DNA of 64,000 nt, from assembly GCF_001690275.1 (NCBI RefSeq), contig NZ_LZGW01000015.1, positions 1-64,000 of the forward strand. Direction: 5' to 3'. Source of the stretch: Gilliamella sp. WF3-4. Lineage in GTDB: Bacteria; Pseudomonadota; Gammaproteobacteria; Enterobacterales; Orbaceae. The notes under the pieces are model-generated. The model did no database searches, had not been told where the DNA came from, and worked only from the letters and a program-made list of their open reading frames with translations. Made by a program: the position numbers and the translations under genes. How positions within the stretch are numbered: the first letter of the stretch is position 1; each line of letters starts with the position of its first letter. Below are positions 47,906 through 63,144 of the stretch, piece by piece.

Positions 47906-48498
47906 TACTATTTTAGGGGATAGTTACACCCCCACGAACACCAGAAAAGCTATTGGTGCCTGATAAACAAGGTGAATGTTGGTCAATGGATTTTATGAGT
48001 GACAGTAGTCGTAATCAACGTCGCTTTAGGACATTCAATGTCACCGATGACTTTAATCGTGAGGCGTTAGGTATTGATATTGCAGTAAGCTTACCAGCAG
48101 GAAGGATTACCCGTTACTTAGATAAACTGGCCGAATATCATGGGTATCCATTAAAAATATGGGTCGATAATGGGCCAAAATTTACAGGAAAAACCTTTAT
48201 AAATTGGACTAAATCACATGATATAACCATTGATTATATCCAGCCCGGTAGCCCATATCAAAATGGCTATATTGAACGATTTAATCGTACCTATCGTACT
48301 GAAGTACTCGATTTATATCTTTTTAACAACTTAGCGCAAGCAAGGAAAATAACTGAAGAATGGTTAACGATTTATAACACCGAAAGACCGCATGAGGCAT
48401 TAAATAACATGACACCGATTGAGTATAAAACACTAAAACAAGCAGCATGATTTTCTACGAGAGTTGTGTACTAAGTTTGGGGTATTTACATAAACAAG
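47906..48498 (+). mobile_element. IS3-family orfB remnant with right end
   Basis: The open frame 47953-48450 encodes the catalytic half of an IS3 OrfB transposase: D in CWSMDFMSDSS, D in IWVDNGPKFTGK, E in YQNGYIERFNRTYR, then YNTERPHEALNNMTPIEYKT. The first part of OrfB and all of OrfA are missing, so it is inactive. The right end (TTGTGTACTAAGTTTGGGGT) breaks off at about 48495, against the DUF7336 fragment. Confidence 0.88.
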
Positions 48499-48663: not shown

Positions 48664-49086
48664 ATGCAAAAAGTCTATGTTTTATATCATATTCGAGATA
48701 TGGGTACTGCTGATGAAGATAGTAAAAAAATCGGCACTTATACCAGCTATAGATTAGCTCAAGAAGCAAAAAATAGAGTTAAAGACCGGCCTGGTTTTAT
48801 TGATTACCCGGATGACTTTTATATTGATGAATATGTTATTGATAAAGATTATTGGGCTGATGGGTTTAAGGAGATGCAAAAAGTTTATTTTTTATATCAT
48901 ATTCGTTATGAAGATACAGATGATGAGGACGTAAAAATAGTCGGCATTTATAGTAGTGCTAAGCAAGCTAAATTAGCTATAGAAAGAGTCAAAAATAAAC
49001 CAGGATTTATCAATTTTCCCGATGGTTTTCAGATTATTAAAGATGTTCTTAATCGTGATGGTTGGTGTGAAGGTTTTATTAAATAA
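48664..49086 (+). CDS. Two-domain DUF7336-like protein (fusion)
   Basis: 140 residues made of two DUF7336-like units. Unit 1 (1-70) is MQKVYVLYHIRDMGTADEDS to DKDYWADGF; unit 2 (71-140) is MQKVYFLYHIRYEDTDDEDV to RDGWCEGFIK. The family motif is VYLxYH, an acidic D/E stretch, the IGxYxS turn, PGFxDxPxGF and DKDxWxxGF. Downstream (49133 and 49402) the same two units are separate genes, so here a deletion removed the stop and spacer. The family often occurs as immunity-type genes. Ribosome site CAGGAGAATAT. Confidence 0.75.
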   Translation: MQKVYVLYHIRDMGTADEDSKKIGTYTSYRLAQEAKNRVKDRPGFIDYPDDFYIDEYVIDKDYWADGFKEMQKVYFLYHIRYEDTDDEDVKIVGIYSSAKQAKLAIERVKNKPGFINFPDGFQIIKDVLNRDGWCEGFIK

Positions 49087-49132
49087 AATATACCAAGCAC
49101 TAAAAATGCTTTTATAAATTACAGGAGAATAT

Positions 49133-49345
49133 ATGCAAAAAGTCTATCATTTACATCATATTAGAGATGAAGGTAATGCTGATGAAGATAATAAAGAAAT
49201 TGGCACTTATACCAGCTATAAATTAGCTGAAGAAGCAAAAAATAGAGTTAAAGACCAACCAGGTTTTATTGATTACCCGAATGGCTTTTATATTGATGAA
49301 TATGTTATTGATAAAGATTATTGGGCAGATGGGTTTAATGACTAG
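49133..49345 (+). CDS. DUF7336-like protein, unit 1 type
   Basis: 70 residues, MQKVYHLHHIRDEGNADEDN to IDKDYWADGFND. Very close to unit 1 of the upstream fusion, and its leader (GCACTAAAAATGCTTTTATA then ACAGGAGAATAT) is a nearly exact copy, so the region grew by tandem duplication of a ~470-base block. Confidence 0.75.
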   Translation: MQKVYHLHHIRDEGNADEDNKEIGTYTSYKLAEEAKNRVKDQPGFIDYPNGFYIDEYVIDKDYWADGFND

Positions 49346-49401
49346 GTTGTATTGAACTTATAAATAAATTTGTGAAGCAAATAAAATATAGGAGTAAGGA
49401 G

Positions 49402-49623
49402 ATGCAAAAAGTTTATTTTTTATATCATATTCTTTATGAAGATACAGACGATGAGGACGTAAAAATAGTCGGCATTTATAGTAGTTATAAGCAAGCTGAA
49501 TTGGCTATAGAAAGACACAAAAATAAACCAGGATTTATTGATTTTCCCGATGGTTTTCAGATTATTGAAGATGTTGTTAATCGTGATGGTTGGGTTGATG
49601 GCTTTGTTGATTTACCTGAGTAG
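49402..49623 (+). CDS. DUF7336-like protein, unit 2 type
   Basis: 73 residues from the ATG after TAGGAGTAAGGAG (an ATG ten codons earlier is less likely), MQKVYFLYHILYEDTDDEDV to RDGWVDGFVDLPE. Separate counterpart of unit 2 of the fusion gene. Confidence 0.75.
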   Translation: MQKVYFLYHILYEDTDDEDVKIVGIYSSYKQAELAIERHKNKPGFIDFPDGFQIIEDVVNRDGWVDGFVDLPE

Positions 49624-50432: not shown

Positions 50433-50819
50433 CTAACCTTGCAATAAGGACATTATAAGAATTCTCCCTTCAAATGGAGAAAATATATTAGAAATACTAC
50501 CCTCTCTAATACCTATTGTTAATAGTTGTTCAATTTCATTCTGTATCCATTTGAAAGTGTAGGTTACTTTTGATGCTAGCTCTGGTTGATTCATTATTTG
50601 TTTATCATGAGCTAATTGTCCTACTAAACAACCACGCTTAATATCGCGTTTCTTGGTAAGAAGCTGCGTTAATCGATCAAACGCGGAACCTTCGTTATTT
50701 ATTATTGTTTGAGTTTCACGAATTAACAATTCACAATTATATTGAATGGCATAATAAGCTAGATTATATTTTTTCTTAAAATGATGGTCTCTTGTCATTT
50801 TTTGTATTCCTACAAACAA
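50433..50819 (-). pseudogene. TetR-family regulator lacking its DNA-binding domain
   Basis: 128 residues. The start corresponds to the last part of a TetR helix-turn-helix (HHFKKKYNLAYYAIQYN resembles the YYHFKSKEDL boundary), and the rest is a TetR C-terminal ligand domain with GCLVGQLAHDKQIMNQPELA. The three-helix DNA-binding part is absent upstream and the 3' end (ILIMSLLQG) stops at the IS3 junction. A relic or a stand-alone ligand domain. Confidence 0.65.
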
Positions 50820-51273: not shown

Positions 51274-54200
51274 TTATAACTTTAATGCTTGAACGCTTTG
51301 TACTAGATCAGCAAGTTGTGTAACAATTTGAGCTCCTGTATTAGCTTCATCGCCACCAAGTGCTTTATTGCGCACAAAGTCGGTTTTAATTTGCTGCCAG
51401 CGTTTTGTCTGTTCTTCGGTAAGTACATTACGGATTTCTGCCAATTTTAATAAATTTTCTTCTGCTCCATTAGTAAGCAATTGTGCTTCTCCAAGGTAGT
51501 GATCTTCAATAATCTGATTAAGCTCTTCATCATTCATCACTGAGGATATTTTTTCCGCAAGTTTATTCATATTACGGTAACTACCTTGCAACTTAAATGG
51601 AGGTTCGGTTCGATATTTATCAGATTGTGCCGCACTAATAATGTATTGTTGATTAACTTTAAATACTACTTCACGAACTTTTAATAGATGACGAAGTACG
51701 GCAACAATTTCATTAATTTCGGCTTGGCTATAAGCATAACTAAGCTCGTTAGTGTTAAGAGGCTTTCCTTGCGCGTGATCGATTAATAGATAAAGATCAT
51801 TAAGGTCACGTAAGGCAAGAGGAGAAAGGATAGGATTTGAGGTTAAGCTGTTTTCAATATAGCTTGATGCAAATACTTCATCCATTCCGCCAAGCACTTC
51901 CCCTAAATTATAAATATCTGCACGGTTAGCCAACATGTCAGGAATTTTAAAAACTTCGCCAGATTCGGTATAGGGGTTACCAGCCATAATTACGCAGAAT
52001 TTTTTGCCACGAAGATCATACGTTTTGGTTTTTCCTTTCCAAACCCCTTCAATACGCCTAGAGCCATCACATAGTGAAATAAATTTTTGTAAAAACTCAG
52101 GGTTGGTGTGTTGGATATCATCAAGATAAAGCATAACGTTGTTACCCATTTCAAGTGCTAAGTTAAGCTTTTCAAGTTCTTGACGGGCGGTTGCATTTGG
52201 TGCTTGCTCAGGATCAAAAGATAACACACTATGCCCTAACGCAGGTCCATTAATTTTCATAAAAATTAAACCAAGTCGGTTGGCAATATATTCCATTAAG
52301 GTTGTTTTACCATAACCTGGAGGGGATATGAGTAATAATAATCCCATTAAATCGGTACGACGGCTTTCTCCTACAGTTCCCATTTGTTTTGCTAGGTTAT
52401 CACCAATAATTGGTAGGTAAACTTGATTAATGAGTTTATTACGTACAAATGAACTTAATGGTTTTGCTTTAAATTCCTCAAGATGTAAAAAATGACGTTG
52501 TTCTTCTAAAACTTCTTGGCGAAGCATTTGGTAATGCTTAAATTCTGGAATTACTACACGCGATTGTTTACGCATACGACTAAAGAAGTCATCTAGATTT
52601 ATATTTAATTGCCCTTGCTTAATGCTTGGATGTTCGCCTAATAGATCATTAACGGTAATATCAAGGTCAACTTCGCTAACTGTTGAGGTTATACCGTTTT
52701 CTTTATCTAATATACATAGCATCGTTGCTTCAGCAATATAAGCTACAAATTTTTGATACTGGGGTAGGGTGCATAGACCTTTAAACCAACTTTCGATTAG
52801 ATTCCAACGATCTGCTAATCGTGTCATCAGGTTTATTTGTGATTGATTAAAGTCCACCCACATGTGAGATTGCTCTAATTGCGTTTTTAATCCTTCAAAC
52901 AATATTTGGCTATATTTACTTAATGTAAATTGTTGCGGTGTTTCGGCTAATATGTAGCTTAAATATTCGGATGCCTGTTTAACATGATAATTATCATGTT
53001 GTATTGGATATTTTTGTAGAAATAAACTGAGTTCTTCAAATATTTCTGTACGAAGATTTTTTAAACCTTCTTCATGTCCAAATAGTGAGTAAATATCCAT
53101 ACAGGTTTTAGCGCGTTCAGGCCATAACTTAGCGATGTCATTTTTTTGATTATAATGCCAATAAAGCATAGCTAAACTGCGTGCTAAAGGATTATAACGT
53201 AGTAAGCCTGCAATCTCACCTAGTGGAATAATTTTTAATAATATTTTTACTGCATCATGATCGTGAATGCCTTTTTCATAGCCTTCTCGATATCGTATTG
53301 CTGCATAATCACGAACAGTTTTACTCAATAGTTCAGGTTGATTTAATTGCGTAGTGAGTTTTTCATAAGTTAATTCATCATCTTTTTTTAATGCAGAATT
53401 AATAATTGAATAAGCAAGATATTCTGCACGATAGACTGTAGGTGATTCTGATTCTAATGAAATTGTCCAAAATGGTTTGTAGCTTTCTAGTTTAGGATGT
53501 TCTATTTTTTCTTGATAATCGGTACCCGTTAATTGTAAATATAGATGGTCTGCTTTAGGTACGACTGTTAGATCAAGTTCCTGTGTATTGACACTAAACT
53601 TATGTCTTGGCCCAAGTTTTATGACATTACCGCCTGATTCAAAAATTTCTGATTTATCACGTAAAGCGCGGATTGCTTGATCTTGTGCGCTTTTGAATCG
53701 GGATTCAATATCGTCTGCTTTAACATTATCAAATAGTGCTCTTAGTTTTTCGACGATTTCACGAATTTTTTGGGCTAAAGGATCAGCAACAAAAAAAGCA
53801 TTGAGTTCTGTTTGGTCTGAAAACTTTGCGGTTCTTCTTGGTATGCTATCTAAAATTCGTTGCGCTGCGGTCTGTAGTGCTTCACTGCGTCTAGCTCTGT
53901 CTTCTAGAAGAGCTTGCTTATGTGTTTCAAACGATTCTAATATTTCTTCACGCTTTGCTAAGATATCATTTAAAAACTCTTCACTTTCGCTAAATTGATT
54001 TTCCAGTTCTTCTAATTGAACTAACAGCCTAGAGAGCTCATCTTCACATTTTTCAGGTGTCGTAGCAAGCCCTAGTGCATTGGCTATACTTTGACTAAAT
54101 AGTTTGAATTGAGCGCCAAATTGGGCGACCATTTCAGTGCTCGAAAAATTTTTTCGGTTTTGGTTTATTCTTGCTTTGGTTTGATTAAGTTTTGAATAAA

Positions 54201-56217
54201 CTTCTGCAATTGATTCAATGATTTTTGTTTGCAATGTGACATCATCAAACTTTAATGATGCCATTAATTGCGATAGCATATCTAAATCATTAGACATATC
54301 ATCAGCCATTTTTGCTGGCTTATTGAGTTTTGCGACAGAATCTGCTTTCGCAATGTCATTTTCTATGTCATCAATTTTTGATATGAATGGCTCTAAGGCT
54401 TGTTCACTACCTAGAAATTCTGCTGTGGCTAAATAAACGATAGATTGGCGTTTTTTAAGTTCATCTTCCATTATATCGATTTGATCTAAATCGATATAAC
54501 GGTAAGTTCTTAAAGTGACAAGACTACCCAATTGCATTTTGATTGCATTCAGGGCATCGACATATTCTTGAGTTTCTTTCCAACTATCAGGATATAATTT
54601 TGCTAATAGATCTTGTTGATTTGAAATCGCTTCGCGCATAGCGCTATTTGATTGGCGGCGTATACTTTCAACTTTTTCATATTCATCAAGTACTAATTCG
54701 CTTGTTTGCGAAATATTACGAAGAATTGGTGTAAAAGGTAAATTTTTCTCGTCATTTAGCCAAAAGTAGGTATCAAAAAGTTTTTTAGTGTCTTCACTTA
54801 ATTTGCTGTATAGTTGGGATGATACTGATTGGTTGTCAATTTCACGAGCAATAAAATAAAGATCTGAGATGCCTCGAACTAGTTCAGCATTGCCAATTCT
54901 ACCTAAAAAGCTATTATTTGTTGGTTGTTTTGCAGCAAATTCATCACTATAAAATGGTGTTTGCCATATTTGCATTGGATGGACCCGAGTTGGTTCGTTA
55001 CTTTCTCCCTCGAACACAACCATTCTACCATCTTCAAAAACAGCATAACCATGACCTAAAATAGGGCTATTGAGTTTACGTTCAATCATATTATAGTTAA
55101 ATAATGCTAATCGACCAGATGTTGGATCATAAAATATATATAAAACATCTTCGCCATTAGGTGAACGTCTGATACGTCTAAAACGCATTCCTGACATTGA
55201 TTGATCAAATGTTTTGTATTCGCCATTTTGTAAATAGTAACCACCAGGGAAAATAATTCCATGATCTTCTGGGAGTTGGATACAAGCTTGACCAATAAAA
55301 TCAATTCGTTGGACTTGTTGTGTTAGCGTATTATAGACTAAGTACCGCCAATTATCTTCGCGATAAGGTAATACTTTTAGTAGAATCAATGATCCTACTT
55401 TAGCATATTCTATTTTAGCGTCATTAATGGATTGATTTTTATCGATGACATCTTCGCGGTAAATTCCAAGCCCATCGTTAGTGTTATTTTCACATTTTAT
55501 TGTTAAATCACCACCAATTGTTTCAACAAAAACAGTATCTAACACATTAACATGTGGAAATCGTCCATTAATAATATTTTCACGCGTGGTCTCTTGCCAT
55601 TCAAAATCATAAGCAGGTGGAAGGGCTATATCTCGTTCACCACGGTTATCTATATAATTAATATTTTTTTTATCGGTTGATATAGACCACCGAAAAACGC
55701 GAATATCACTTACCCGTTCACCAATTTGGAAGCTAGCTAGTAACTTACCATCTCGTTCAACAAGTTGTAATAACTGAGCATTTTTATAATAAGTATAAAG
55801 TTCATTAAAATCTTGAACAAATCGATCAATGTTTAAGAAGGTACCAGAAAGATCAACAGGATCTGCTTCGTAATTACCATCACGTTCGATAAGCTGATAA
55901 AGAGAAAAGACATCTTCAATTTTGGTTTCTTTTTTTAATCCTAAAAAAACGTTATAGCCAAATAATAACCAATCACCAAAACGAACAATATCTCTTGCTA
56001 TACAATTATTTTCAGTTCTTATACGAATTCGCGCGGTAATTGACATATCGCTTTTACCGAATTCAGAAAGCCGTTGTTGATTTAATGTTTCTGTTTTTTG
56101 GTTAAGCTCTTGCCCTAATGATGTTAGACGTTTACGAAGAATTTCATAAGCACCGCCTTCGGCAACTGCTTTATCTAATGTTGTTTGTTTTTCAATATCT
56201 TGTTGTATTTCTGACAT
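51274..56217 (-). CDS. Giant AAA+ ATPase (DNA repair ATPase family)
   Basis: 1647 residues, last gene of the operon. Residues ~60-470 are beta-rich with repeated YLVYN/LLFGY-type strands, propeller-like. ~560-860 are charged coiled coil. ~940-1250 are helical. The AAA+ domain has its P-loop LLISPPGYGKTTLMEY near 1298, Walker B NVMLYLDDIQHTN near 1362, and a sensor region FCVIMAGNPYTESGEVFK. The family is annotated as DNA repair ATPase, with little direct evidence. Encoded with PspA and a flotillin, so a membrane or stress-remodelling job is at least as likely. No frameshift. Confidence 0.85.
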   Translation of the reverse strand: MSEIQQDIEKQTTLDKAVAEGGAYEILRKRLTSLGQELNQKTETLNQQRLSEFGKSDMSITARIRIRTENNCIARDIVRFGDWLLFGYNVFLGLKKETKIEDVFSLYQLIERDGNYEADPVDLSGTFLNIDRFVQDFNELYTYYKNAQLLQLVERDGKLLASFQIGERVSDIRVFRWSISTDKKNINYIDNRGERDIALPPAYDFEWQETTRENIINGRFPHVNVLDTVFVETIGGDLTIKCENNTNDGLGIYREDVIDKNQSINDAKIEYAKVGSLILLKVLPYREDNWRYLVYNTLTQQVQRIDFIGQACIQLPEDHGIIFPGGYYLQNGEYKTFDQSMSGMRFRRIRRSPNGEDVLYIFYDPTSGRLALFNYNMIERKLNSPILGHGYAVFEDGRMVVFEGESNEPTRVHPMQIWQTPFYSDEFAAKQPTNNSFLGRIGNAELVRGISDLYFIAREIDNQSVSSQLYSKLSEDTKKLFDTYFWLNDEKNLPFTPILRNISQTSELVLDEYEKVESIRRQSNSAMREAISNQQDLLAKLYPDSWKETQEYVDALNAIKMQLGSLVTLRTYRYIDLDQIDIMEDELKKRQSIVYLATAEFLGSEQALEPFISKIDDIENDIAKADSVAKLNKPAKMADDMSNDLDMLSQLMASLKFDDVTLQTKIIESIAEVYSKLNQTKARINQNRKNFSSTEMVAQFGAQFKLFSQSIANALGLATTPEKCEDELSRLLVQLEELENQFSESEEFLNDILAKREEILESFETHKQALLEDRARRSEALQTAAQRILDSIPRRTAKFSDQTELNAFFVADPLAQKIREIVEKLRALFDNVKADDIESRFKSAQDQAIRALRDKSEIFESGGNVIKLGPRHKFSVNTQELDLTVVPKADHLYLQLTGTDYQEKIEHPKLESYKPFWTISLESESPTVYRAEYLAYSIINSALKKDDELTYEKLTTQLNQPELLSKTVRDYAAIRYREGYEKGIHDHDAVKILLKIIPLGEIAGLLRYNPLARSLAMLYWHYNQKNDIAKLWPERAKTCMDIYSLFGHEEGLKNLRTEIFEELSLFLQKYPIQHDNYHVKQASEYLSYILAETPQQFTLSKYSQILFEGLKTQLEQSHMWVDFNQSQINLMTRLADRWNLIESWFKGLCTLPQYQKFVAYIAEATMLCILDKENGITSTVSEVDLDITVNDLLGEHPSIKQGQLNINLDDFFSRMRKQSRVVIPEFKHYQMLRQEVLEEQRHFLHLEEFKAKPLSSFVRNKLINQVYLPIIGDNLAKQMGTVGESRRTDLMGLLLLISPPGYGKTTLMEYIANRLGLIFMKINGPALGHSVLSFDPEQAPNATARQELEKLNLALEMGNNVMLYLDDIQHTNPEFLQKFISLCDGSRRIEGVWKGKTKTYDLRGKKFCVIMAGNPYTESGEVFKIPDMLANRADIYNLGEVLGGMDEVFASSYIENSLTSNPILSPLALRDLNDLYLLIDHAQGKPLNTNELSYAYSQAEINEIVAVLRHLLKVREVVFKVNQQYIISAAQSDKYRTEPPFKLQGSYRNMNKLAEKISSVMNDEELNQIIEDHYLGEAQLLTNGAEENLLKLAEIRNVLTEEQTKRWQQIKTDFVRNKALGGDEANTGAQIVTQLADLVQSVQALKL

Positions 56218-56332
56218 TTTTAACTCATTATGATTATACAGAAAAGCTTATTGTTTTCGGTAGAAACGTATTATCTACCGAAAACAGATGATAGCGATAA
56301 GCCAAATTAATAACTATCGAAGAACATGTTCA

Positions 56333-58435
56333 TTATTTATTGTCATTTTCTGTAGATAGAAATTGTTTTGCTAGTGCTTTTAAATCAGTATTTTGCAATG
56401 TTTCTTTTAGATCAACATGCTTATCGCCTGATAAGCGTGATAACACTGATTGCAACGCCGATTGAAGAACAGGGCTTTGATTAACTGTTCCTTCAATAGC
56501 TTTACCTACACTAATTGCTTTAGAGAAGCTGTTAAAGAAGTTATCGTTGCCGCCCACAATTTCGATATTGGCTTTACTAAATGCTGCAGCAAGAACATCT
56601 GCTTGCTCTCTTGCAATTTCTTTATTGGCAGCAATAGCAGCCATAGCTTGTTCAAATCCTTTTTCAAGTGCCAAACGGAACTCCTCATGGTGTTGAGATT
56701 GTTCGCTCATTGTGCCCATAGCTTGGAATTTCTCAACTAAACCACTAGCTTCGGCTGTTAAACGTTCACGTATTACTAGTGCTTCAGCAAGGCCTTGCTC
56801 TTTTGTTGACGATGCTTTGGCTAAACCGATTCGTTCATCACCACGAGCTTGTGCTGAAAGTTTTTCTTCAAGTACTTTAGCTTCTGTTAAGCCTTGTTTC
56901 TCGATTGCAATAGCTTTAGCTTCAATAACTTTTGCTTCTGATAATCCTTTTTCTTGGTTACCTTTTGCTTCTGCTAATAAAGTTTCTGCTGTGATATTTG
57001 CTTTGACTAATCCTTCTTTTTCTTCAGCTTCTGCGCGTGCTTTACGTACTTTTGCTTCAGCAAGACCGATTGCCGCTTCTTCAGCTTCAATACCTTGTGC
57101 CAATTGTTTTTTGGCTTCTGCTTGTTTAGCTGCTGCTTCAAGTTCAGCTTGTGCCATTGTGCTAATTTCAATAGCGCGGTGTTTTGATGATTGTTCGTCA
57201 GCTTCTGCTTGCTTAACTTGCTTAACTAACTCTTGTTCAGCTCTTGCTTCTGCTTCAATAATTGTTGTTTGTTTTTCACGATCTGCTTTTGAAACTTCAC
57301 GTACTTCTTTAATGTTTTCTTCTTCGACTGCAACTGTTTTTTCAACAGCAACGCGTTCTCTTATTACATTGGCAATAAGTTTTTTTTCTTCTTCAAGCAC
57401 TTTATCTTTTTCAATGCGTTGCAATTCAACCTCTCGTTCACGAGCAACAATTTCAAGTGAACGAGCTCTTTCAACTCGCTCTTCTTCTATTGCAATAGCT
57501 CTTAAGCGGTTTTGTTGTGCAACTTCGACTTCACGTAAACGATTTTCTTCTCGTACTTCAATTTCTTGTTGTGATTGAATTCTAGCTTGTTCTGCTTTCA
57601 AACGCTCTTCTTCTTGTACTTTTAACGTTTCAGCTGCTTCACGTGCTCGAATTGTTTCGATTTCTCTTTTTTGTCTTGCTTCAGCATCTGCTTGTTGTCG
57701 TTCAAGTTCAAGTTTTGCTTCAATTGTTTCGGTATCTTTCTTTTTTAATGCGAGTTCAAGATCTCTTTCTCGTTTGTTGGTTTCATCTTTATGAACAGCT
57801 GTAATGGATGTAATTTTATTAATCCCTTCAGCATCAAAAATATTATCAGGATCAAGAGATTTTATTGGCGTTTGTTCTAAATAATCGATAGCAACATCTT
57901 CTAAAGCATAACCATTTAGATCTTTTCCGATAACATCAATAATGCGTTCACGAAAGTTCATGCGATCTTCAAACAGTTTTGATAACTCGAATTGTTTCCC
58001 GACGGTTTTTAGTGCTTCTGAAAATTTTGCACTAAAGAGTGAACTTACTGCTTTTTGATCTGAAGCTCTATCTACACCAATAGATTTAGCTACTTTTAAC
58101 ACATCTTCAGTCGTTTCGTTAACGCGTAAATAAAAAGCAACACAGATATCTGCGCGTAAATTATCTTTACAAATTAAACCATCTTTACCCCGCCGCTCTA
58201 CATCAAAAGTAATCAATGAAATTTTCATAAATTCTTTTTTATAGATAACAGGGTAAACTAGGGCCCCTGTAAAGTGTACTTTGGGTTTTGAGGTCATATC
58301 ATTAACGATAAGTGCTGTACCCTGAGGAACTTTAATATAAAAAGCTTTAAATAATAAGAAAAACCCCATTATAACTAAAAAGATAATTCCTATTGTTATA
58401 AAAAAAAATATTATTGTATCAGTATTTATATGCAT
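56333..58435 (-). CDS. Flotillin/YqiK-type SPFH protein
   Basis: 700 residues, longer than E. coli YqiK (~553). One N-terminal membrane helix (IIFFFITIGIIFLVIMGFFL), an SPFH/band-7 domain (~30-210, with VPQGTALIVND and LKTVGKQFELSKLFEDR), then a very long coiled coil (~220-590) dominated by Glu, Ala, Lys and Arg, and a C-terminal part with VLAAAFSKANIEIVGG. Expected to oligomerise in membrane microdomains. Between the OB-fold protein and the ATPase in the same operon. Confidence 0.92.
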   Translation of the reverse strand: MHINTDTIIFFFITIGIIFLVIMGFFLLFKAFYIKVPQGTALIVNDMTSKPKVHFTGALVYPVIYKKEFMKISLITFDVERRGKDGLICKDNLRADICVAFYLRVNETTEDVLKVAKSIGVDRASDQKAVSSLFSAKFSEALKTVGKQFELSKLFEDRMNFRERIIDVIGKDLNGYALEDVAIDYLEQTPIKSLDPDNIFDAEGINKITSITAVHKDETNKRERDLELALKKKDTETIEAKLELERQQADAEARQKREIETIRAREAAETLKVQEEERLKAEQARIQSQQEIEVREENRLREVEVAQQNRLRAIAIEEERVERARSLEIVAREREVELQRIEKDKVLEEEKKLIANVIRERVAVEKTVAVEEENIKEVREVSKADREKQTTIIEAEARAEQELVKQVKQAEADEQSSKHRAIEISTMAQAELEAAAKQAEAKKQLAQGIEAEEAAIGLAEAKVRKARAEAEEKEGLVKANITAETLLAEAKGNQEKGLSEAKVIEAKAIAIEKQGLTEAKVLEEKLSAQARGDERIGLAKASSTKEQGLAEALVIRERLTAEASGLVEKFQAMGTMSEQSQHHEEFRLALEKGFEQAMAAIAANKEIAREQADVLAAAFSKANIEIVGGNDNFFNSFSKAISVGKAIEGTVNQSPVLQSALQSVLSRLSGDKHVDLKETLQNTDLKALAKQFLSTENDNK

Positions 58436-58466
58436 AATTTATTTTTCTCCAAAAATTGAACTCTGA

Positions 58467-59114
58467 CTATCCGTTAAATTCTTCAATGCTAATGATTTCA
58501 TAGAAATTATTAGCCATATCATATCGTAGTAGTACTGCTTTATCTCCACGCTTAAATTGATAAGCTTCGTCACTTCTAACTTGTAAAATTAATCCCGCTC
58601 CACCATCTTCATAAATAGCTTCTCCTTTAATGTTATTGACAATACTGGATCGTATTAGAACAATTTGTCCTAATAATGATTTATGATCATGAGTTAAATT
58701 TAGTTTTGTGAAAATAGGGCGAATAGGTTTTATGACAAATGCAGTGAGGTAAATAGCGGTGATTAGTGAAATTACAAAAAAAACTGCTCCTATAATAAAA
58801 TAAAGCAAAATATCATTATATAGCGGTAATATAAAGAATCGGAAACTAAAATAGCTAATTGCCCATCCGAATAATGAAATTAAGGTAATAACTAATGTGA
58901 GCGGTACTTCATTAAAACCAAATTTCAATAATAAGCCACCAAATCCAGATGATGGTATATCGGTAGCTGTATCCTCTACGTTAATCGCTATATCTAAACA
59001 ATCAACACTTAAAATGCCAATTGCGGCAGTTAACCAATACATAACGCAAAGTGTTAATAAGGCGCTAAAAATAACAACGGGAAAAGAAAAAAATATCCCC
59101 CAAAAAAGCTCCAT
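58467..59114 (-). CDS. Membrane OB-fold protein (YqiJ/NfeD type)
   Basis: 215 residues. Membrane helices at about 1-35, 70-90 and 98-125, then a C-terminal OB-like barrel (GQIVLIRSSIVNNIKGEAIY, KRGDKAVLLRYDMANNFYEI). YqiJ/NfeD-type proteins are the usual partners of YqiK/flotillins; E. coli has yqiJ-yqiK in this order. 31 bases before the flotillin gene. Confidence 0.88.
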   Translation of the reverse strand: MELFWGIFFSFPVVIFSALLTLCVMYWLTAAIGILSVDCLDIAINVEDTATDIPSSGFGGLLLKFGFNEVPLTLVITLISLFGWAISYFSFRFFILPLYNDILLYFIIGAVFFVISLITAIYLTAFVIKPIRPIFTKLNLTHDHKSLLGQIVLIRSSIVNNIKGEAIYEDGGAGLILQVRSDEAYQFKRGDKAVLLRYDMANNFYEIISIEEFNG

Positions 59115-59208
59115 TATATTTCCTTTATATTTTAAATAGTTATTACAATTTTCTAATTATTATATTTTTAACGGTTATTGTAACTAAAAAAAGTAAAACT
59201 TAAAAAAC

Positions 59209-59901
59209 TTAATTAATTTGTTTTTCTTTTAACCTAGTTAAGATTGCTTCGGCACTTTGGTTGCTCGATTTTATTCCTGCCTCTTCAAGTTTACGATCAA
59301 GCGAATCTTGAGTTTCAGATCCCAATAATTCTTTTTTTGCTTCAATAGTGGCAGATGTTTTTTCTTGTCGTTTTTTTATTCGCTCAAGAGAGTCTAAGGC
59401 TGTTTGTAGTTTTGTTGTTGAATTTCCATAACGTTGAGCAATAGCAGATTGTGCCTTTTGCACACTTTCTGTTGCTTTTACAATATCTACTTGTTGTTTA
59501 AGATTACGGATATTAATTTCTGTTTGTAATATTGTTTGTCGTAGATTTTTTACGTTATCGGCAAAATAAGTTGCTTGCTCTTTATTAACTGTGTACTTCT
59601 TTTCAAGAACCGAAAGTTTTTCAGCGACTTCTAAGGCCAATTTTTCATTATTGCTTTCTAATGCTTTGATGGCATAATTTTCATACTCAGTTATTTCTAC
59701 TTGAATTTTTTCAACTTCTTTATCGGCTAATTTTTGTTGCGCAAGTATGCTTGCTAACGATTCTTTAGCTTGTTTTAATTCAACGTCAGCATCGCGAATT
59801 TCTTGGTCTAATATACGTAGAGCTTGCGCATCAATAATCGCTTCGCCGGCTTCATTAACACTACCACGAAGCGCTGTAATAAGCTTTTTGAAGATAGCCA
59901 T
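59209..59901 (-). CDS. PspA/IM30-family protein (YjfJ-like)
   Basis: 230 residues, almost wholly helical: MAIFKKLITALRGSVNEAGE, DQEIRDADVELKQAKESLAS, long coiled coil to about 170, then a short tail. PspA/IM30 proteins belong to the ESCRT-III superfamily and coat or repair the inner membrane. The N-terminal amphipathic helix is present. Like E. coli YjfJ it follows a DUF2170 gene (yjfI). Confidence 0.93.
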   Translation of the reverse strand: MAIFKKLITALRGSVNEAGEAIIDAQALRILDQEIRDADVELKQAKESLASILAQQKLADKEVEKIQVEITEYENYAIKALESNNEKLALEVAEKLSVLEKKYTVNKEQATYFADNVKNLRQTILQTEINIRNLKQQVDIVKATESVQKAQSAIAQRYGNSTTKLQTALDSLERIKKRQEKTSATIEAKKELLGSETQDSLDRKLEEAGIKSSNQSAEAILTRLKEKQIN

Positions 59902-59919
59902 TGTTAATCTCCTTGTTAA

Positions 59920-60573
59920 CTATTTTGATTCAATATTGTTAATGTTAATATAATGTTCATAAGCTTCGGTAGCTTTAATGACATTATCTGATAAAGTTTC
60001 TAATTCATAAATGATGTCGCTTAATAATGAAGACGCACTTAAAGCTCCGTACATAATATAATTTAATGCCCCATCTCCTGTTTTTTCAATTGCAATAGTT
60101 GATAATGGGAATAGTTTTCTAGTACATAATATTTCTTCATTAAATTGATTTGTGTGTTTGACAATATCAACAGGCCAAAGTAGAGCCTCAATAATAATTT
60201 GTTGATTAGAAGCACTTAAAAATAGAGGTAGATCACCATACTCATGCATGGTTATATGCAAACAAGCATCAACGCCATCGATGACTTCAATACTGGCAAA
60301 ACCTTGCTTAGATAATTCTGAGTCACGCAAAGCTTGATAAAGATCTGTAATTGACCAAACTTCATTTTTTTTCATTTTATTGTTTTCCTGTATATTGTTA
60401 AAGCATGTACTATTGTCTATAGGTAGACGAAACTGTTTTTCAATTTCGAGTAATTGAGTTGCATTTTCAGGTAAAATCCAAACTTCTTTTTTTATTAGAC
60501 CTTGCTCACGCAAGCGTTTTCTATATTGTTGTTGGTAAAATGCAGAGCTTTTGGCCTCTTTTGTTTTTTTCAT
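59920..60573 (-). CDS. DUF2170 protein (YjfI-like)
   Basis: 217 residues, first gene of the operon. N-terminal basic helix QQQYRKRLREQGLIKKEVWI with LPENATQLLEIEKQFRL, then the DUF2170 domain from about 70 (VWSITDLYQALRDSELSKQG, CLHITMHEYGDLPLFLSASN, FPLSTIAIEKTGDGALNYIM). The YjfI-YjfJ pairing is conserved. Function unknown; a regulator or adaptor of the PspA protein is possible. 18 bases before the PspA gene. Confidence 0.88.
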   Translation of the reverse strand: MKKTKEAKSSAFYQQQYRKRLREQGLIKKEVWILPENATQLLEIEKQFRLPIDNSTCFNNIQENNKMKKNEVWSITDLYQALRDSELSKQGFASIEVIDGVDACLHITMHEYGDLPLFLSASNQQIIIEALLWPVDIVKHTNQFNEEILCTRKLFPLSTIAIEKTGDGALNYIMYGALSASSLLSDIIYELETLSDNVIKATEAYEHYININNIESK

Positions 60574-60611
60574 ATGTTGATTTTATGTTTATTTTAATTA
60601 TCAATAGGGTT

Positions 60612-60668
60612 TATATTAACATAAAAATATTACATGTAAATATCACATGTAATAATTACATGTGATAT
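60612..60668 (-). promoter_or_regulatory. Promoter with 29-bp perfect palindrome upstream of the stress operon
   Basis: On the minus strand TTTACA (60640-60635), a 17-base spacer and AATATA (60617-60612) form a fair promoter, 39 bases before the first start. 60640-60668 is a perfect palindrome: 14-base arm ATATCACATGTAAT, one centre base, then its inverse. A third ACATGT lies at 60632-60637 inside the -35. Three ACATGT cores spaced over the promoter look like operator sites for a dimeric regulator, not identified in the window. Confidence 0.7.
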
Positions 60669-60840: not shown

Positions 60841-63144
60841 TTAAAAATCAATATCCATACCTAACTGGAATGTTCTACCGGGTGCGGTGAACATTTCTAG
60901 ATATTTATAGTTTGATGTTTTGTATAATTTATTGTTACTTAGATAATCCCAATATTTTTGGTCGGTAAGATTATAGATGCCACCGCTTAATTTTACATTC
61001 TTAGTGATATTGACATAACCAGTCAGATCCACAATACCGTGTCCTGCAACTCTAAAATAATCATCTGTAGCGGCTTTGATTGGTTTGCCGTCATTATTGT
61101 AAGTTTCACGAGCTGTATTTTCAGCTTTCTTGCCTTTTTGGAAGGTGGCAATTAATGCTAAACCATAGTCTTGATTTGGATTGTCCCATGCTAAACCAAT
61201 GGTGCTCTTTAGCGGAGCAATGCTATCCATTTCAATATATTTATCGCCTAAATAGCTTGATTTTGATTTACCTTGATTGTAGCCAATTGCCAACCTGGCA
61301 CTTAGCCCATTGGCTGATTCAATCCATGTGCCGATATTAAATTCGCTGCTTAGTTCTGCGCCATAAATATAGGCTTTATCTCTATTTTCTGATTGATAAA
61401 CAATACGATTACCAACTCCGACAAAATTCTTTTTATAACGAGAATAGGCAATGAAGTTTTTATATTTATTATAAAAAGCGGCAGTTGATAATGTCACTCC
61501 TGATGTTGGCTGTCCTTTTAAGCCTAATTCAAAGTTGTCACTGGTTTCGGTTTTTAGGTTCGAATCGCCAACCAGTACATACATTTGGCTATGAGCTAAA
61601 TAAGAACCATATAATTGATTTTGATTAGGCATTTGTGCGCCACGTTTATATTGGAGGTAAGTTATTAAATCAGGATTAATATCATACATAAATGCTATAG
61701 ATGGCAATACCTTAAAGTCACTATTACGATTATATTGTTTACCTAATTGGTTAGCATTGATATTAGTAACTGTCATGTTTTGCAAATTACGAGGTTTGGT
61801 GTTTTGATATATAGCTCTAGCACCAGGGATTAAATAGAAATTATTGCTGTTATTGACAGTAAAACTTATACGATCTTCAAGAAATCCCCCTAATTGATAA
61901 CTACGGCTATCTGCTTGAGGTTTTGTGTAATCTCCATCGGGGAAAATTCTGCCATACTGTGATTTAGCTGAAGTATAAAATGGTGACTCATCTCGACTCC
62001 AATTAGCATTTAAACCTGCACTTATTTTTTGATTTTCATAATTTTTTAATAATGTTGTAATAAAGTTATAGGCTTTAGTATTATAGTGCGTTTGAGTGTT
62101 AAATTTACCTCGAGTTGTGTGTTGTAAATCCGTATTATCATAAACGTGGGTATGTTGATAATTTAATTGGGTAGTTAATGAGTCGATCCAACTAATATTG
62201 GTTGGTTTCCATAATTCTTTTATTGCTAAGTTAAAACGGTTATTTTTGCTTTTTTGGTGATCAAATGATTCTATTTTTTTACCGTATTTGTCCCATGTAT
62301 CATAATGAGAATTTTTAGTTTTGCTGTTATAATCAACGGTCGTATTGAGTAAATGCTCTTCGGTTATTTGCCAGCCAAATCCTGATAGGATTGAATTTGA
62401 ATGCCAGTTTTCAGGGTAACTGTTGATTGAATCACCATGATTCCGCGTTTGTTTGCCATCACGGCGGCTTAATACTAAAATACCATTTAGCCTATCATCA
62501 CCTCCAGCTATGGTTAAACCTTGATGATAACTTTTGTCGGTACTATCATAATTATTTTGGAAACCAAAGTAGCTTGTTTTTCCTGGATATAAATAGTAAC
62601 TGGCAGTTTTAGTTTGAAATGAAACCGAACCACCAAGGGCATTATTAGGGTTACTAACTGATGTTGCGCCTGATTGAATATCGACTTTATTGTACATATA
62701 GGTATCAATGTAATCACGACCAATCCCATAAGAACCAAAGCCAGCACGACCTACAGAATTGACCCTACCTTGGGCTATAGGTAAAGGCATACCATCAATG
62801 TCGATTGAAACGCGGTTGGCATCTAAGCCACGGATATTATAGCCAGTAAAGCCTCCACGATCCCAACTACTTTTACCACTTCCTGAGCCAGAAATATTAC
62901 CAGACGCAGAAATCAGTGGTTGATAACGCATTATTGTACCAAAATTGGTTCCGCCGTTGCGCCTAATGTCTTGCTCCGATATTTCTTTATTGGTGCCTGG
63001 TTTTTTAGTTGTTTCATGCGCTGTGACTGTCATTACATCATCATGCGTTTGGTTGGTGTTATTGTTTGCTGCAATGGCAGGTATTCCTAATGTTAAGCCT
63101 AAAGCTAGTGTACTAGATATTTTTAAATGAGTAACGTTAAGCAT
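60841..63144 (-). CDS. TonB-dependent haem/haemoglobin-type receptor
   Basis: 767 residues. Signal peptide to about IPAIAANNN, TonB box DDVMTVTA, plug domain (TIMRYQPLISASGNISGSGS, YNIRGLDANRVSIDIDGMPL, NNALGGSVSFQTK) and a 22-strand barrel ending LEMFTAPGRTFQLGMDIDF. Belongs to the haemoglobin/transferrin/lactoferrin receptor group. The haem-binding protein gene just upstream points to haem as cargo. The final Phe is typical of outer membrane proteins. Confidence 0.9.
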   Translation of the reverse strand: MLNVTHLKISSTLALGLTLGIPAIAANNNTNQTHDDVMTVTAHETTKKPGTNKEISEQDIRRNGGTNFGTIMRYQPLISASGNISGSGSGKSSWDRGGFTGYNIRGLDANRVSIDIDGMPLPIAQGRVNSVGRAGFGSYGIGRDYIDTYMYNKVDIQSGATSVSNPNNALGGSVSFQTKTASYYLYPGKTSYFGFQNNYDSTDKSYHQGLTIAGGDDRLNGILVLSRRDGKQTRNHGDSINSYPENWHSNSILSGFGWQITEEHLLNTTVDYNSKTKNSHYDTWDKYGKKIESFDHQKSKNNRFNLAIKELWKPTNISWIDSLTTQLNYQHTHVYDNTDLQHTTRGKFNTQTHYNTKAYNFITTLLKNYENQKISAGLNANWSRDESPFYTSAKSQYGRIFPDGDYTKPQADSRSYQLGGFLEDRISFTVNNSNNFYLIPGARAIYQNTKPRNLQNMTVTNINANQLGKQYNRNSDFKVLPSIAFMYDINPDLITYLQYKRGAQMPNQNQLYGSYLAHSQMYVLVGDSNLKTETSDNFELGLKGQPTSGVTLSTAAFYNKYKNFIAYSRYKKNFVGVGNRIVYQSENRDKAYIYGAELSSEFNIGTWIESANGLSARLAIGYNQGKSKSSYLGDKYIEMDSIAPLKSTIGLAWDNPNQDYGLALIATFQKGKKAENTARETYNNDGKPIKAATDDYFRVAGHGIVDLTGYVNITKNVKLSGGIYNLTDQKYWDYLSNNKLYKTSNYKYLEMFTAPGRTFQLGMDIDF

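Follow-up and report, generated by a model that had tools for sequence, protein, structure and literature searches.

Operons that unite PspA with a flotillin and an AAA+ ATPase are already published as a class, AAA+ gene included (Ravi et al. 2024, PMC11237479). In the part of that paper devoted to them, a CesT/Tir (DUF2170) protein and PspA occur with a transmembrane (TM)-band7-flotillin protein, a novel coiled-coil/beta-propeller AAA+ ATPase, and a YqiJ-like protein. The same part describes the DUF3686 domain as a beta-propeller, notes shortened operons without PspA, and likens other PspA–AAA+ associations to Snf7/Vps4. We analyzed an operon of this kind in Gilliamella sp. WF3-4. The window, i.e., the whole stretch of DNA analyzed, comprises 64,000 nucleotides. 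The operon (51274–60573) consists of five co-directional open reading frames (ORFs) on the minus strand, with intergenic gaps of 18, 94, 31, and 115 bases from 5' to 3', computed from the ORF coordinates. They encode a DUF2170 protein (BacA/YjfI-type, CesT/Tir-like; 217 amino acids (aa), 59920–60573), a PspA/IM30 protein of the ESCRT-III superfamily (230 aa, 59209–59901), a YqiJ-like TM/OB-like protein (215 aa, 58467–59114), a flotillin (700 aa, 56333–58435), and a DUF3686 AAA+ ATPase (1647 aa, 51274–56217).

The window operon shares with the Ravi 2024 operon the DUF2170–PspA pair at the 5' end, a flotillin with TM, SPFH, and coiled-coil parts (the coiled coil by eye), and an ATPase in which Pfam found both AAA+ and DUF3686. 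The YqiJ-like 3TM feature was found as a profile match; the segment method was crude, its segments overlapped, and three TM segments are not proven by it. In its section 19, the portion considered here, that paper gives no partner-fidelity counts, operator, DNA-binding extension of DUF2170, or split ATPase. A second related system is the bacA–bacF operon of Pseudomonas aeruginosa. According to passages of PMC10948618 and PMC13086221, its single transcript likewise carries genes for DUF2170, PspA, a short NfeD protein, and an SPFH protein, and bacA–bacD resembles the first part of the window operon. At locus L010, the DUF2170 protein scores above the NCBIfam cut-off for BacA, and the operon runs on into the ATPase.

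We propose, with a probability of roughly 0.55, that the core of this system is an AAA+ remodeller docked on a scaffold of the flotillin and the YqiJ-like protein, and that PspA and an autorepressing DUF2170 protein form its stress-sensing front end in Proteobacteria. The operon would then consist of two separable units. In the first, the flotillin and the TM/OB-like protein would build a membrane scaffold or cage at the cytosolic face, and the ATPase would dock on it and remodel or disassemble the protein assemblies held there, working like HflK/C with FtsH minus the protease domain. The second unit, DUF2170 plus PspA, would be a Proteobacterial add-on, in which PspA polymers may coat and protect damaged membrane. 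The long form of the DUF2170 protein would bind PspA in a chaperone-like manner and also act as an autorepressor, occupying the tandem YACATGTR boxes that overlie the promoter and leaving them once PspA reports envelope stress. The cage, the docking, the substrate of the ATPase, DNA binding by the extension, and the PspA signal are the parts that we infer.

The pairing of ATPase and flotillin carries the first unit. The ATPase was found in 8 of the 398 genomes of a phylum sample, the window's own included. To the window and the 7 further matches from that sample we added 78 loci obtained by scanning named genomes for short peptides taken from the window ATPase (best 80 of 94 relatives). The resulting 86 loci have hosts in Pseudomonadota, Myxococcota, Actinomycetota, Acidobacteriota, Gemmatimonadota, and Thermodesulfobacteriota. 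Flotillin was present in 79 of them, the TM/OB-like protein in 75, DUF2170 in 29, and PspA in 28. Flotillin lay upstream of the ATPase in all 79 loci with both (median gap 76 bases; at most 300 in 70/75), and the OB–flotillin–ATPase triad kept the same order on one strand in 75 of 75 cases. Where at least 5.5 kb was available upstream (72 loci), flotillin was found in 67 and PspA in 27. The seven loci lacking flotillin were one cut by its contig (L091), one beginning near the ATPase (L046), two from Sorangium, and three of the Thiotrichales type. Searches of eight genomes picked for a non-adjacent flotillin or a missing PspA (two Thiotrichales-type, two Sorangium, G655, and three Wohlfahrtiimonas) recovered flotillin in all eight.

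The converse direction was covered by 369 genomes of the class Gammaproteobacteria. Ten carried the ATPase and 11 a flotillin orthologue (E <= 1e-60), with an overlap of 10 (Fisher 1e-18, a value overstated by the relatedness of the genomes). The eleventh flotillin runs into a contig end (match end 16153, contig 16154). Judged by this pairing alone, flotillin is very probably the most faithful partner of the ATPase. These results indicate flotillin, not PspA, for that place, and the open questions about the system are now testable. One locus (L063) carries a tandem pair of flotillin-like ORFs ahead of the ATPase.

The window flotillin has one N-terminal TM-like segment, an SPFH/Band_7 domain, and a long coiled coil, the last judged from the sequence. 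Band_7 exceeded its cut-off only with the N-terminal 229 residues alone (E = 2e-7); the full-length protein gave 0 matches. The flotillin family profile matched E. coli YqiK (E = 3e-33). The TM/OB-like protein has hydrophobic TM-like segments, followed by a C-terminal OB-like domain, probably of the NfeD type. Pfam on the alignment of the OB-like proteins gave no consistent family, with YqiJ_N in 2 of 38 (best E = 0.016). In E. coli K-12, the related TM protein and flotillin likewise adjoin as yqiJ–yqiK; in contrast to the window operon, no ATPase, PspA, or DUF2170 gene lies within the surrounding 12 kb, and YqiK has 553 aa.

A preliminary description of this DNA had listed five leftward, closely spaced genes for a DUF2170 protein, PspA, a membrane OB-fold protein, a flotillin, and a 1647-residue ATPase with intact Walker motifs. 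The arrangement agreed with the ORF coordinates (gaps 18–115 bases), and Pfam and PDB matches confirmed the DUF2170, PspA, flotillin, and ATPase identities. Pfam gave PspA_IM30 at E = 3e-48, DUF2170 at E = 9e-47, and, on the ATPase, DUF3686 at E = 1e-203 plus AAA_5/AAA at E of about 1e-7; the PDB comparison of PspA was likewise as expected. The OB-fold protein was upheld as far as its similarity to YqiJ goes (profile E = 3.7e-7); the window protein has no Pfam match of its own. The Walker claim held for Walker A, which is invariant, and needs a qualification for Walker B, which reads LYLDDIQ with Asp where Glu is usual. The genome of this strain contains a single match each for PspA, DUF2170, DUF3686, and flotillin (E <= 1e-60), and the closest ATPases are those of Gilliamella and Frischella (83–93% identity in the best segment).

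The same description had cast the ATPase as a possible remodelling engine that acts on the PspA polymer at flotillin microdomains, much as Vps4 acts on ESCRT-III. Like that pair, the operon combines a member of the ESCRT-III superfamily with an AAA+ ATPase. A co-occurrence check brought points in favor of the idea. In the class sample, PspA scored over the cut-off in 77 genomes and DUF2170 in 27. PspA was found in 10/10 ATPase genomes versus 67/359 others (Fisher 1e-7), and DUF2170 in 10/10 versus 17/359 (Fisher 7e-13); these counts include genomes with the genes apart, and both Fisher values are overstated, being computed on related genomes without kinship correction. Some PspA was found in 41 of the 44 ATPase genomes searched, and DUF2170 in 14 of 33, none of these 14 from Actinomycetota, Myxococcota, or Gemmatimonadota; both sets were hand-picked and mostly without a neighbouring PspA. 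PspA occurs near the ATPase in two arrangements, with 25 cases on the same strand and 3 on the opposite one. Yet these 28 cases, 14 of them from Orbaceae, leave 58 of the 86 loci without a nearby PspA, some of the loci being short. The two-way class test makes flotillin the specific partner of the ATPase, and PspA and DUF2170 real, less specific associates.

Three Wohlfahrtiimonas genomes (two isolates and one metagenome-assembled genome (MAG), completeness not shown) gave no PspA match and kept the module. In these three, Snf7 was not over the cut-off and DUF2170 was not found. The ratio of nonsynonymous to synonymous substitution rates (dN/dS) of their ATPases was 0.040 and 0.046, versus 0.039, 0.039, and 0.054 in three Gilliamella comparisons; the Gilliamella ratios are rough, since dS exceeded 1 in most of those comparisons. 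The Wohlfahrtiimonas ATPases are thus under strong purifying selection, as in Gilliamella. In the ATPase tree, which came from a quick search, was rooted at its midpoint, and carried warnings about long branches and composition, Wohlfahrtiimonas is the sister group of Orbaceae, which carry PspA. On that tree, the state of having PspA beside the ATPase changed at least seven times over 55 ATPases, with six changes forced by starred branches. No change fell within a 21-row side made up of Myxococcota, Acidobacteriota, Actinomycetota, and one gammaproteobacterial MAG (L084). A selected ATPase in a genus without a PspA match speaks against the Vps4 analogy, as do the loci without nearby PspA.

The ATPase itself was compared with Vps4. 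Its DUF3686 domain covers residues 37–485 (54763–56109) and its AAA+ module residues 1250–1600 (51418–52470, both on the minus strand). Walker A lies at residues 1301–1306 and Walker B, with its DD, at 1363–1369; a sensor-1-like Asn (N1414), a finger-like Arg (R1432), and a sensor-2-like Arg (R1548) were assigned by eye. Walker A and these three residues, the last within GSYRNM, were invariant in 60 of 60 sequences. AAA and AAA_5 (dynein-related) each matched all 60 C-terminal halves. Pfam scans of the full window protein, of all 60 C-terminal halves, and of 10 of the 60 N-terminal ones gave neither MIT nor Vps4_C (the latter at E up to 0.01 in the C-terminal halves). Classic AAA proteins are not known to carry a sensor-2 Arg, and their second region of homology typically has two Arg residues. 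The corresponding motif here, LANRADIYNLG, has one invariant Arg when compared by eye. By this rule, the sensor-2-like Arg, a putative assignment, separates the ATPase from the classic AAA clade. The lack of MIT and Vps4_C matches together with this Arg lowers the case that the enzyme is a Vps4, not that it may work like Vps4. With the class-wide PspA link on one side and, on the other, the greater specificity of flotillin, the Wohlfahrtiimonas genomes, and the missing Vps4 domains, the PspA-remodelling role has partial support, and we consider it unlikely.

Pfam describes DUF3686 as an 'ATPase involved in DNA repair', and 55 of the 60 members show weak matches to the P-loop of RuvB, which would also fit a role on DNA. 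However, the match of the window protein covers only the P-loop stretch, no DNA-binding domain was found in the Pfam scans of the window protein, the 60 C-terminal halves, and 10 N-terminal halves, and the constant neighbour is flotillin (79/86 loci). Action on DNA is therefore very improbable. In a PDB search, all matches of the C-terminal profile were short ones to the P-loop region of AAA proteins and RuvB, and the N-terminal profile gave one weak, irrelevant match. The open PubMed Central (PMC) library gave no match for DUF3686 or for 'DNA repair ATPase' with flotillin. An anti-phage defence role was also considered and set aside, as PADLOC matches were weak (E = 0.0025 or worse).

The scaffold-and-remodeller reading likens the system to HflK/C–FtsH. 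HflK/C is an SPFH assembly that acts with an AAA ATPase at the membrane, and FtsH is a membrane protease. The likeness is the pairing of an SPFH protein with an AAA ATPase. The difference is that the window ATPase showed no TM segment in a hydrophobic-segment scan, and no protease domain was found in the same set of Pfam scans. Three Thiotrichales-type genomes have a split ATPase, encoded by two unlinked genes. The ORF for the N-terminal part (1165–1207 residues) stops ahead of the AAA module, which is encoded on another contig as a gene of 625–628 aa, 74–75% identical to that of the window (L083, L085, L086, L124, L125, and L126). Candidatus Venteria and Thiomargarita are presumably of this type; one record is so titled. 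In both split-ATPase genomes searched, flotillin lies on a third contig, and in one (L117) the TM/OB-like gene adjoins it. The split indicates that the motor and the propeller/coiled-coil part can be separate polypeptides kept together by evolution. These genomes, and those of Wohlfahrtiimonas, in which no PspA was found, are natural material for dissecting the machine. In L013 (G007), the ATPase frame holds one internal TGA and appears as two ORFs.

The solved relative of the DUF2170 protein is the BacA chain 8q8o (146 residues, E = 3.5e-37), whose alignment starts at residue 71 of the window protein, indicating that the crystallised chain lacks the N-terminal extension. The window protein scored 288.7 bits with NCBIfam BacA (NF050185), below the curated cut-off of 300; among four relatives scanned, L010 (356.9) and L033 (322.3) pass, and L011 (238.2) and L018 (293.9) fail. 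Of 47 DUF2170 loci compared, 30 were long-form, with the extension, and 17 short-form, a division based on the called ORF starts. In the window, the extension spans about residues 1–55 (60409–60573, minus strand). In the 30 long-form proteins, it has the form KSSAxYQRxYRQRLREQGLVKKEVWILPEN. In an alignment of 25 of them, the MazE-like profile PF11455 weakly matched 23 (E up to 1; best 4.3e-4), and a profile of the plasmid repressor UrfF matched 15 (best E = 5.8e-6). From these matches, the extension is predicted to be a MazE-like or UrfF-like DNA-binding domain.

Upstream of the DUF2170 gene, three operator-like YACATGTR boxes (60631–60664, minus strand; 8-mers at 60664–60657, 60651–60644, and 60638–60631) recur with a 13-base period. 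They cover a sigma-70-like promoter (60613–60640, minus strand; TTTACA, 16 bases, TAATAT, TG before), which overlaps the third box. The segment delimited in the preliminary description ended at 60668; it included 95 bases ahead of the first gene, and with them the boxes. Promoter-like matches occur in the region at chance number (45 found versus 44.1 expected), so the promoter is assigned by position only. The genome of this strain has the exact palindrome TCACATGTAA-N(0-12)-TTACATGTGA at a single place.

At least two exact boxes were present at 27 of the 30 long-form loci versus 0 of the 17 short-form loci (Fisher 4e-10). These counts are not independent, since the motif had first been found on part of the same loci, and they include L047 only after a downstream shift of its start. 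Orbaceae make up 14 of the 30 long forms; among the other 16, 14 had two exact boxes. Three long forms fell short, L039 and L104 with only the variant ACAGGT and L052 with one exact box. Among the short forms, L107 has a single box, at -336. As a control, 1 of 1947 other ORFs had two boxes, with a scan range of -150 to +60 for the controls, many of which may be non-coding, and -350 to +90 for DUF2170 genes. Boxes occur without the flotillin–ATPase module in L102 and L103, and are absent where the module stands with a short DUF2170 protein (L015, L049, and L076–L078), indicating that the boxes track the extension, not the ATPase.

These patterns suggest that the long-form DUF2170 protein may be an autorepressor of its own operon. 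In a bacA mutant of P. aeruginosa, BacB, BacC, BacD, and two downstream proteins rose 6.1- to 13.5-fold, as given in PMC10948618, which also cites a BacA–BacB interaction as unpublished. A rise of five operon proteins is what the loss of an autorepressor would give, and the extension, with operator-like boxes that track it across families, could explain at the sequence level how BacA exerts its reported negative control on the bac operon. The MazE-like DUF2170 extension and the long-form-linked boxes are additions to the published operon and were not met in searches of the open PMC library. There, TTACATGTAA as a term gave no match, and in a search for DUF2170 as an operator-binding repressor the word DUF2170 was in none of the matches listed.

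In a more tentative version, to which we give less than even odds, the long-form DUF2170 protein would be a one-component envelope-stress switch. Its MazE-like domain would sit on the boxes and its CesT-like domain on PspA, and the status of PspA would set the expression of a flotillin-caged AAA+ machine with separable motor and propeller halves.

The DUF2170–PspA pair could instead lie upstream merely by virtue of a shared envelope-stress response, PspA and the ATPase having no physical contact. The pair does occur without the module: in L102 and L103, long-form DUF2170, PspA, and boxes are followed by other genes in place of the flotillin module. It lies on the opposite strand in L076–L078, and the tree requires at least 6–7 changes in whether it stands beside the ATPase. 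However, class ATPase genomes keep DUF2170 and PspA even when they are not adjacent, which favors some functional dependence. We therefore regard a purely shared stress response as doubtful.

Several observations weigh against the scaffold-and-front-end reading. The ATPase lies away from flotillin in the two Sorangium loci and in L099, and the TM/OB-like protein is weakly conserved (22–68% identity to that of the window). With PspA and DUF2170 in all ten class ATPase genomes and some PspA in nearly all the genomes searched, PspA may be more than an add-on. Asp replaces the usual catalytic Glu of Walker B in 81 of 81 aligned homologues; DnaA also has DDIQ as its Walker B. The MazE-like and UrfF matches of the extension are under the curated cut-offs (PF11455 gave 13.7 bits for the window extension, cut-off 22), and a PDB search with the extension profile gave no solved relative at E up to 1. 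Finally, the promoter passage of PMC10948618 proposes a sigma-54 promoter for the P. aeruginosa bac operon, in contrast to the sigma-70-like promoter here. With a sigma-54 consensus, the window gave 29 matches (at most 2 mismatches) versus 32 expected, and none lay in the upstream region, which does not support a sigma-54 promoter here.

The flanking genes were also inspected. Directly upstream of the operon and on the same strand, 60841–63144 encodes a TonB-dependent receptor of the haemoglobin/transferrin/lactoferrin type (TIGR01786 best match, under the cut-off). An ORF of 766–770 aa occupies the place of the receptor in L018, L019, L020, L024, L025, and L050, identified there by position only. 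After the ATPase, 50433–50819 (minus strand) encodes a TetR C-terminal-like ORF with a weak Pfam match (E = 0.003, under the cut-off) and no DNA-binding half matched. Past the downstream end of the operon, there are near-copies of a short protein (MQKVYFLYHI...; 48664–49623, plus strand) and an integrase-like (transposase) ORF judged by eye (47953–48450, plus strand).

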